Positions 8,227 through 10,522 of a stretch of DNA of 64,000 nt are shown here, in pieces. Origin of the DNA: Cellulomonas flavigena DSM 20109. GTDB lineage: Bacteria > Actinomycetota > Actinomycetes > Actinomycetales > Cellulomonadaceae. The DNA lies in NCBI RefSeq assembly GCF_000092865.1, contig NC_014151.1, forward strand, positions 186,001 through 250,000. Direction: 5' to 3'. Position 1 is the stretch's first letter. Each line of letters begins with the position of its first letter. The position numbers and the translations under genes are program-made. The notes under the pieces were generated by a model that saw only the letters and a program-made list of their open reading frames with translations, made no database searches and was not told the origin of the DNA.

Positions 8227-9321
8227 TCAGGCCGGGGCGCGGTCGCCGAGCCACGGCGCGAGGACGTCGGGCCGCCCGAGCCACGGCTCGTAGCCACGCC
8301 GCACCTCCGGCTCGCTGAGGACCAGCTCCGCGAACGCCTCGCGCAGCGCCGGTGCCTCGTCCCCCGTCCCCGTCACGACCAGCCGCGTGTCGGGCGTGCG
8401 GTGACCCCACGGCCCCGCGGCGCCGATGCTCAGCTGCCCGCCGGCGCCCTCCCACACGCACATCGTGTCGGGGCGGCTGGGCACGTGGAACCGCCCACGG
8501 CTGCGCACGCGCGGGCTCCCCAGGCGCTCGACGCCGTGCAGCAGGCGCTCGGGGTGGAACGGGCGGTCCGTGTGCAGGTCCAGGGTCCACACGCCGTTGC
8601 GGGTCGGGGCGCCGGGCACGGGCGCGACGTGCGCCGGGTCCAGGCGGCGCTCCGCGGTGGTGGGCGCGTGGTCGACCGCGGTGAGGTCCGGCAGTCGCAC
8701 GCGGTGGCGGCCGTCGACGCGCCGGCCGTCGGTGGCGCGGACGTGGTCCAGCAGGTCCGACGCGACGGCGTGGACGCTGCTCGACCCCTCGACGAGGACG
8801 ACGTCGGCGTGCCCGACCTGCGCCGCCAGCGCCTCGCCGACGGACCGGCGGTCGTCGTGGGTGAGCGCCAGGCCGCGCTCGTCGAGCAGGTCGTCCCCGA
8901 GCAGGTCGTGCTCGAGGGTCGCGAGGTCCACGGTCGTCACCGTGGTGCCCAGTCGCAGCGCGGCGAGGGTGTCGCCGGGGCGCATGGCCCAGCCGAGCGC
9001 GCGCACGACGGGCAGCGGCTCGGCGCTCACCGGGAGCGCGAGGACCACGGTGTCCCACGGGCCGTCGGCGAGGCGGTGCAGGGTGGGCACCGCGTCCTCC
9101 CGCACGGCGCACGACAGGCAGGCGTGCTCGAGCGGCAGGACCTCGTCCTCCAGCACGCCGGTCGCGTCGGCGACCACCCGCCGCAGCGTGCCCTCCTCGT
9201 CGTCGTGGATGTCGTGCCGGACGGCGACGGTGCGCGGTGCGTCGAGCAGCAGCGACATGAGGGTCGCGTCGCGTTCGACCGGGTCGACGCTCGACAGGAC
9301 GACGACGGGGGTGCGGGGCAT
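8227..9321 (-). CDS. mrf: MRF-like CobW/COG0523 family protein
   Basis: The 364-residue protein has the COG0523 layout: an N-terminal nucleotide-fold region, a CLSC metal-type motif in EHACLSCAVRED, and a C-terminal CobW domain (about 265-350). In mycobacteria the relative in this position is MRF, which recruits the hibernation factor to ribosomes carrying zinc-free proteins. The divergent zinc-free ribosomal operon here supports that reading. The usual P-loop GxxGSGKTT is replaced by SSVDPVERDATL, so GTP binding by a classical Walker A motif is doubtful. The ATG at 9321 has an overlapping GGAGGAG site; an in-frame TTG at 9336 is less likely. The operator-like site at 9361-9379 lies just upstream. 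Confidence 0.8.
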   Translation of the reverse strand: MPRTPVVVLSSVDPVERDATLMSLLLDAPRTVAVRHDIHDDEEGTLRRVVADATGVLEDEVLPLEHACLSCAVREDAVPTLHRLADGPWDTVVLALPVSAEPLPVVRALGWAMRPGDTLAALRLGTTVTTVDLATLEHDLLGDDLLDERGLALTHDDRRSVGEALAAQVGHADVVLVEGSSSVHAVASDLLDHVRATDGRRVDGRHRVRLPDLTAVDHAPTTAERRLDPAHVAPVPGAPTRNGVWTLDLHTDRPFHPERLLHGVERLGSPRVRSRGRFHVPSRPDTMCVWEGAGGQLSIGAAGPWGHRTPDTRLVVTGTGDEAPALREAFAELVLSEPEVRRGYEPWLGRPDVLAPWLGDRAPA

Positions 9322-9360
9322 GGGCTCCTCCTGCAAGGTGCGAACAGTTCTCAGTATGGA

Positions 9361-9386
9361 CGAGAACCATAATCAATAACTAGCGT
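9361..9386. promoter_or_regulatory. candidate Zur operator and -10 element of the MRF/ribosomal divergon
   Basis: CGAGAACCATAATCA at 9361-9375 followed by ATAA matches 15 of 19 positions of the site in front of aztD. Read on the minus strand it fits a 7-1-7 Zur box at about 10 of 15 positions. A TAGCGT -10 element for rpmB follows at 9381-9386, only eight bases before the ATG, so the transcript has almost no leader. Binding here could repress both divergent genes. Confidence 0.6.
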
Positions 9387-9394
9387 CGTGCGCC

Positions 9395-9631
9395 ATGAGC
9401 AACCACTGCCAGGTCCTGGGCAAGGCGCCGACCTTCGGGCGCACCGTGTCCCACTCGGGCCGCCGCACACCCCGGCGCTTCGTGCCCAACATCCAGCGCC
9501 GCCGCTACTGGGTGCCCTCGCTCGGGCGCCACGTGCGCCTGCGCGTGTCCACGGACGGCATCAAGGTCATCGACCGCCGCGGCATCGACGTCGTCGTCGC
9601 GGGCATCCTGCGCCGCGGGGAGAAGGTCTGA
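9395..9631 (+). CDS. rpmB: 50S ribosomal protein L28, zinc-independent form
   Basis: The 78-residue protein has the L28 core [20 protein letters not shown]. The zinc-binding form carries two Cys pairs; here only Cys5 remains and its partner is Leu, so the zinc site is lost. Such paralogues replace the zinc-bound copies when zinc is scarce. The gene is the first of a tightly packed operon and shares an operator-like region with the divergent MRF-like gene. Its stop overlaps the ATG of the next gene by one base. Confidence 0.95.
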
Positions 9632-9798
9632 TGGCCAAGCGCCTGGACCTGCGGCCCGTCATCAAGCTGCGGTCCACCGGCGGCACCGGGTTCACCTACG
9701 TGACCCGCAAGAACCGCCGCACCACCCCCGACCGGCTCGTCCTGCGCAAGTACGACCCGCAGCTGCGCCGGCACGTCGACTTCCGCGAGGAGCGCTGA
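9631..9798 (+). CDS. rpmG: 50S ribosomal protein L33, zinc-independent form
   Basis: The 55-residue product has the L33 pattern [20 protein letters not shown] followed by [16 protein letters not shown]. No cysteine is present, whereas zinc-binding L33 has a Cys pair near each end of the ribbon. The ATG overlaps the rpmB stop (TGATG), implying translational coupling. It is the second gene of the zinc-free ribosomal operon. Confidence 0.95.
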
Positions 9799-9799
9799 C

Positions 9800-10105
9800 A
9801 TGGCCAAGACGTCCAAGATCGCCCGCGACGCCCAGCGCCGCGAGGTCGTCGCCCGGTACGCCGCCCGCCGTGCCGAGCTGCGCGCCACCTCGGTGAACCC
9901 GCACCTCACCGAGGACGAGCGGATCGCCGCGCGCGCCGAGCTGCACGCCCAGCCGCGCGACGCGAGCCCCGTGCGCCTGCGCAACCGTGACCTGGCCGAC
10001 GGCCGCCCGCGCGGCCACCTGCGCAGGTTCGGGCTCTCCCGCGTGCGGTTCCGTGACATGGCGCTGCGCGGCGAGCTGCCCGGCGTCACCACGTCGAGCT
10101 GGTGA
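9800..10105 (+). CDS. rpsN: 30S ribosomal protein S14, zinc-independent form
   Basis: The 101-residue protein is the long S14 type, with the C-terminal [20 protein letters not shown] signature and no cysteine. The short 61-residue zinc type has four Cys. It begins one base after the rpmG stop. Its own TGA overlaps a GTG (GTGA) that opens the L31-like remnant downstream, suggesting that translational coupling once linked the two. Confidence 0.95.
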
Positions 10106-10218
10106 GGGGACACCCGCAGCGCACGGTCATGGACACCGCCGGACGCGTCGAGAAGTTCCACCGGCGCTACGGCACCCCGCAGCGAAAGCAGCCGTCGGAT
10201 CAGGAGGACAGCAGATGA
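10102..10218 (+). pseudogene. rpmE2: remnant of type B ribosomal protein L31 (C-terminal part)
   Basis: Between rpsN and rpmJ a short frame from the GTG at 10102 (or the ATG at 10129) encodes up to 38 residues. The segment [18 protein letters not shown] is the conserved C-terminus of type B L31, and the HP shortly before it fits the HPFW motif of that protein with some residues missing. About the first two thirds of a normal L31 of about 80-90 residues is absent, so an internal deletion has fused its tail to the end of rpsN. The frame is still open and overlaps rpmJ by ATGA, so a short peptide may still be made. Identification is from the recognised motif only. Confidence 0.75.
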
Positions 10219-10337
10219 AGGTGCGTGCGTCGCTCGCGTCGCTGAAGAAGAAGGACGGGTCGATCGTCGTGCGGCGGCACGGCAAGACCTTCGTCATCAA
10301 CAAGCGCAACCCGCGGTGGAAGGCGAGGCAGGGCTGA
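10215..10337 (+). CDS. rpmJ: 50S ribosomal protein L36, zinc-independent form
   Basis: The 40-residue protein has the L36 pattern [16 protein letters not shown] followed by [23 protein letters not shown]. The three Cys and one His that bind zinc in ordinary L36 are missing. The ATG overlaps the stop of the L31 remnant (ATGA), and its own stop overlaps the rpmF start (TGATG). It belongs to the zinc-free ribosomal operon. Confidence 0.95.
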
Positions 10338-10522
10338 TGGCCGTCCCCAAGCGCAGGACGTCGCGCTCGCGCACCCGCTCGCGCCGCGCGCAGTGGGTCG
10401 CGACGCCCACCCCCCTGACGCGCGTGCGGGTCGACGGCCGTGACGTCGTCGTGCCCCCGCGCCTGGTACCCGCGCTGCGGCGCGGGCTCATCGACCCGCA
10501 GGGGCTGCCTCCGGCGCCGTGA
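10337..10522 (+). CDS. rpmF: 50S ribosomal protein L32, zinc-independent form
   Basis: The 61-residue product begins [20 protein letters not shown], the L32 signature, and lacks the four cysteines of the zinc-bound form. A frame beginning 21 bases earlier is less likely because the L32 start is conserved. It is the last gene of the ribosomal operon. Its last 35 bases overlap the 3' end of the convergent YibE/F gene. Confidence 0.93.

Follow-up and report, generated by a model that had tools for sequence, protein, structure and literature searches.

The window analysed here comprises 64,000 nucleotides, positions 186001–250000 of the single 4,123,179-base contig of Cellulomonas flavigena. At 9395–10522, on the plus strand, it carries an operon of ribosomal protein genes in the order L28, L33, S14, a 38-codon open frame, L36 type B and an L32-like protein (Table 1). 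The frame starts with GTG, encodes 38 aa and overlaps both neighbours by 4 nt, the rpsN stop with GTGA and the rpmJ start with ATGA, so that the earlier note on this DNA was correct in describing both overlaps as intact.

Table 1. Features of the operon and of the frame between rpsN and rpmJ (positions within the window)
Feature	Position	Strand	Basis
Promoter-like region with putative Zur-like box (~9362–9379) and -10-like TAACTA (9377–9382)	9357..9382	+	upstream alignment, 17 loci
rpmB, L28 paralogue, one cysteine left	9395..9631	+	Pfam Ribosomal_L28, E 2.3e-23
rpmG, L33 paralogue, cysteine-free	9631..9798	+	Pfam Ribosomal_L33, E 5.7e-15
rpsN, S14, 101 aa, cysteine-free, end TGG TGA	9800..10105	+	NCBIfam PRK08881, E 5.5e-37
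Stub of type B L31 gene, 38-codon open frame	10102..10218	+	Pfam end match and alignment to relatives
What is left of the rpsN stop and of the lost L31B gene's leader and ribosome-binding site	10102..10116	+	sequence letters
Deletion junction	10116..10117	+	alignment to L004, L006, L007
Retained L31 tail (18 residues)	10126..10179	+	alignment to relatives
rpmJ ribosome-binding site (AGGAGG), 7 nt upstream of ATG	10202..10207	+	sequence letters
rpmJ, L36 type B	10215..10337	+	NCBIfam type B L36 PRK00831, E 2.4e-20
L32-like protein, cysteine-free	10337..10522	+	Pfam Ribosomal_L32p, E 2.2e-8, first 27 positions only

Upstream of rpmB we recognized, by resemblance, what we take to be a putative Zur box and promoter elements. 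With the rpmB start at 9395 and the -10-like hexamer at 9377–9382, the operon leader would be very short or absent. The Zur-like box is identical across C. flavigena and the three relatives L004, L006 and L007 (genomes G007, G029 and G053). The -35-like hexamer (9357–9362) is TGGACG here versus TTGACG in these relatives, and the operon promoter may be weaker in C. flavigena. A gene for a CobW-family GTPase lies at 8227–9336 on the minus strand, divergent from the operon; CobW-family genes often adjoin zinc-stress genes. Within the operon, S14 has Thr four residues before its end (TSSW) versus Lys (KSSW) in seven relatives compared, and S14 of a further locus, L015 (G008), has Thr at that position too. 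The second half of the L32-like protein is similar to that of its counterparts in L004, L006 and L007.

Profile searches aligned residues 6–24 of the 38-aa product with the final 19 positions of Pfam Ribosomal_L31 (E 1.3e-4; 22.6 bits, with a cut-off of 27 bits), and a genome-wide L31 search recovered the same position at E 0.0032. The score against the NCBIfam type B L31 model was 17.9 bits, with a family cut-off of 86, the match being limited to the end of the profile and short of full length. General L31 models of NCBIfam (best 8.5e-5) came slightly ahead of the type B model (0.0025), which hinted at a type A origin. The type B assignment follows from synteny, because a complete type B L31 gene of ~90 codons stands at exactly this place in L004, L006 and L007, and a type A origin is ruled out on the same grounds. 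Over 17 codons the stub protein is identical to those of L004 and L006, with 47 of 51 nt identical and all four differences at third positions. This identity in place, at both the protein and the nucleotide level, rules out a chance frame, and an unrelated small gene is ruled out by the L31B gene that the relatives carry there.

The C. flavigena frame is therefore a remnant of a type B L31 gene, as indicated by its homologous sequence, its disabling lesion and its syntenic place. The earlier note had proposed that the gap between rpsN and rpmJ encodes the L31 tail and represents a decayed type B L31, and the profile match and the alignment to relatives bear out both points. It had also placed the tail almost directly at the end of rpsN; the L31 end is indeed there, while the five leading codons match the old L31B leader and ribosome-binding site, with two changes in 15 nt when compared to L004. 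Clear homology to L31 is thus confined to the end of the gene, and the last dozen codons of the stub align poorly with relatives. The 38 residues are cysteine-free, the segment where zinc-binding cysteines would sit having been deleted.

Alignment to L004, L006 and L007 shows a gap of 178 nt in C. flavigena, which opens at the second base of the L31B start codon and closes after two bases of the codon that precedes SAR (or NAR); one further base is absent between 10125 and 10126. The start codon and ~59 of the 91 codons of L31B are lost, through the SHPFWT stretch, and the Shine-Dalgarno sequence of L31B is GAGGGG versus GAGGAG in the three relatives. In L004 and L006 the 10-mer AGCCACCCGT is present twice, once within the leader of L31B and again at its SHP motif, because of which the HP of the stub is assignable to neither copy in particular. 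In our reading, slippage or recombination between the two 10-nt copies of this direct repeat would leave the frame intact, and a second, small deletion of 12 nt together with two substitutions would then lead to the present sequence. A single deletion together with one lost base is an equally possible route. That the closest relatives are intact could also mean that L31B is intact in C. flavigena too and was misread or misassembled. We regard such an error as extremely improbable, since the genome is described as finished, with 65x Sanger and 454 coverage, Illumina polishing and an error rate of <1 in 100,000 (PMC3035266), the repeat is merely 10 nt long, and the stub has substitutions of its own.

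The operon S14 was detected in 29 of 81 genomes of the genus (24/60, counted as matches below 1e-30, and 5/21). A full L31B is present in 26 of these 29, the exceptions being C. flavigena, G021 and G023, and in all 26 the gene lies between S14 and L36B with its stop overlapping the rpmJ start by 4 nt. Across a sample of 396 genomes of the order (S14 threshold E 1e-15, L31B threshold 1e-18), zinc-free S14 was found in 210 and L31B in 222. The lists, read by eye, contained 203 genomes with both, and seven of the 210 with S14 only: C. flavigena (G000), G021, G318, G393, G086, G438 and G453. S14 without L31B is uncommon in the order.

The loci without L31B differ in what is left of it. In G023 (locus L064), which is outside the order sample, the gap between S14 and rpmJ is a 13-codon frame, MKRHIHRPTEEER, with the 4-nt overlap onto rpmJ kept; by our reading it may represent the first and last L31B residues joined. 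Ten nucleotides are left between S14 and rpmJ in G021 (L032), and 3 nt between the S14 stop and rpmJ in G318 (L065). G086 (L069) has an N-terminal L31B stub of ~20 codons followed by a stop, 3' of S14, with no L36B within the stretch fetched; likewise, no same-strand L36B followed S14 in the stretches fetched from G393, G438 and G453. In L022 (G088), S14 adjoins L36B with no L31B between them, and L31B is found elsewhere in the genome. G021 and G023 group as sisters with 87% support, so the L31B losses in the genus number two or three.

The earlier note had also asked whether a full rpmE2 lies elsewhere in the genome. The genome-wide L31 search found no full L31B elsewhere in C. flavigena, which rules out that the gene has moved, and the sole full L31 of the genome is of the zinc-binding type, with four cysteines. 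For L36, L33, L28 and L32 the genome contains a second, cysteine-bearing copy each, with four cysteines in that of L28, and a second S14 at G000:C1:2951004 matches residues 34–101. As the zinc-free forms of the other operon proteins have been kept, L31 alone of the set has lost its zinc-free form; in the cellulose-degrading C. flavigena, the zinc-free L31 copy of the zinc-stress operon is mostly deleted. A zinc-starved cell would presumably be left with the zinc-binding L31A or with no L31.

The operon is a natural experiment: its five other zinc-free proteins have been retained and only L31B has been given up, on at least two occasions in the genus, which suggests that L31B is the most dispensable member of the operon there. 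Loss of L31B alone agrees with reports that L31 paralogues are not equivalent: N. gonorrhoeae without RpmE2 and RpmJ2 is described as growing better under zinc limitation, although work cited in the same paper reports that loss of alternative ribosomal proteins harms growth of several other bacteria at limited zinc (PMC13343924). In E. coli, bL31A and bL31B are reported to differ in growth and frame maintenance (PMC7363858).

Given the overlaps at both ends, we considered whether ribosomes that translate the stub pass from S14 to L36B through termination-reinitiation, with the frame kept by selection and the peptide without a role of its own. Overlaps of 4 nt are described as the most frequent arrangement, and in six gene pairs that were tested a gap of ~20 nt all but eliminated coupling (PMC10666635), so that an unread gap of 109 nt would uncouple rpmJ. 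An open linking frame is found in all three genus genomes that lack L31B and have S14 next to L36B, and at four of the five loci examined in which S14 adjoins L36B without L31B, namely these three and L022, with L065 as the exception. Although such coupling is plausible, the functional readings of the stub find no support in the sequence at this locus, and we consider it unlikely that the frame is kept for coupling.

First, the overlaps are inherent in codons that were there before the loss. In the genus, all 26 relatives whose L31B is intact have an rpsN that ends with TGGTGA, so GTGA is present there too, with the L31B start 13–40 nt 3' of the rpsN stop in the six intact relatives listed. 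The rpmJ start ATG AA contains ATGA by itself; two of the 26 intact relatives (L007 and L063) have a GTG start instead. With TGGTGA and ATG AA already in place, any stop-free stretch in the right phase gives an open frame from overlap to overlap. Among 104,000 simulated deletions resembling the one in the window, 28% yielded exactly the C. flavigena frame. In simulations of window-like deletions that allowed other starts, a linking frame began within 15 nt of the rpsN stop in 39% and within 45 nt in 59%; for random deletions the chance of a linking frame was 0.27–0.36. One of the two readings offered in the earlier note, a pure coupling device, thus finds no support in the overlaps, given these values and the TGGTGA of the intact relatives. 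The three linking frames of the genus are also weakened as evidence for selection by the sister relationship of G021 and G023, which may reduce them to two events. The remaining locus, L065, has no linking frame, but rpmJ lies so close to the S14 stop there that it needs none.

Second, rpmJ has a strong and open ribosome-binding site of its own, and by eye no Shine-Dalgarno sequence precedes the GTG at 10102. The duplex energy of the rpmJ Shine-Dalgarno sequence, computed against an anti-Shine-Dalgarno sequence, is -11.5 kcal/mol, in a range of -6.6 to -12.6 over 29 genus loci. In folding predictions the rpmJ start region has a mean unpaired probability of 0.60, the fourth highest of the 29. 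Coupling would be indicated by a hidden start or by the lack of an own ribosome-binding site, and rpmJ has neither. Folding gave no support for the possibility that the rpmJ start is opened only with the help of the stub, and nothing in the sequence suggests that rpmJ depends on the stub.

The retained 17 codons contain no amino-acid change and no stop, and two of the four third-position differences are unique to C. flavigena among eight loci. The branch leading to C. flavigena amounts to 0.17 changes per third position, in a tree where its placement has 68% support; a larger tree grouped C. flavigena with G053 (91% support). Under neutral drift over the whole branch, ~6.6 replacements would be expected at 38.7 replacement sites. 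That none is found implies either that the deletion occurred in roughly the last 45% of the branch (our estimate at the 5% level), or that the tail is constrained. On 17 codons of one genome, a young deletion and a constrained tail would both fit.

Another possibility is that the stub is made and binds the head of the 30S subunit like the L31 tail, with no bridging to the 50S subunit. In E. coli, the C domain of L31 is described as binding the 30S head, where it contacts S13 and S19 and reaches S14 and helix 41, and the N domain as binding 5S rRNA and L5 on the 50S subunit (PMC9966373). The stub keeps part of the C domain, the one on the 30S head, and its 17 retained codons are free of replacement changes. 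The N domain contacts that binding in E. coli also uses are gone, and nothing in the relatives aligns with the final dozen codons; we find a functional peptide improbable. A more specific possibility, which we hold to be very improbable, is that zinc-starved cells translate the stub and that its tail, lacking a 50S anchor, docks next to S14 on the 30S head. There it would occupy or weaken the L31 part of bridge B1b and lower subunit joining when zinc is short, a ribosomal protein turned by deletion into a regulator peptide. In E. coli, L31B is reported to repress translation of L31A, for which its N-terminal residues are required (PMC9825181); the stub lacks these residues, and such repression is not expected of it.

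The frame is probably the leftover 3' end of the L31B gene (rpmE2), produced by ordinary decay through internal deletion, and most likely debris. The homology, the missing sequence, the lack of another L31B in the genome search and the intact neighbouring genes are direct observations. An internal deletion in the C. flavigena lineage would have taken the L31B start codon together with the segment that anchors L31 to the 50S subunit, through either of the routes given above, whose order of events is our reconstruction. The open frame and its two overlaps would be by-products of pre-existing codons. The rpmJ gene would be translated from its own ribosome-binding site, and some read-on from S14 through the stub is possible, although unneeded. 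The stub would then be debris that happens to link neighbouring genes, presumably without function. The locus is a clean test case for whether or not the frame of a pseudogene is kept open for translational coupling.

The closest solved chain to the L31B protein of a relative is 6dzi_g (E 1.1e-33), which we take to be a chain from Mycobacterium smegmatis. Among known zinc-free ribosomal operons, that of M. smegmatis is described as encoding bL28, bL33, uS14 and bS18, and ykgM-ykgO of E. coli as Zur-controlled (PMC7363858). C. flavigena likewise has L28, L33, S14, L36 and L32-like paralogues and a Zur-like box, with second copies elsewhere, and differs by the L31B stub, L36B and the L32-like gene; no S18 was found at the locus with one tblastn query over 3.3 kb. 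Titles and abstract beginnings in the open-licence literature contained no description of an L31B stub or of this operon in Cellulomonas. With type B L31 (rpmE2, ykgM, ytiA) the stub shares the tail motif and the place between S14 and L36B, but the start, the N domain and the SHPFWT stretch are absent from it, and its length is reduced by about two thirds. A shortened L31 is also known from E. coli, in which short bL31 is described as a protease 7 product without the last 8 residues (PMC9966373). That form is produced by cleavage while ribosomes are being prepared, in contrast to the gene deletion in C. flavigena, and it keeps the 50S anchor and loses the 30S end, whereas the C. flavigena stub keeps the opposite end.
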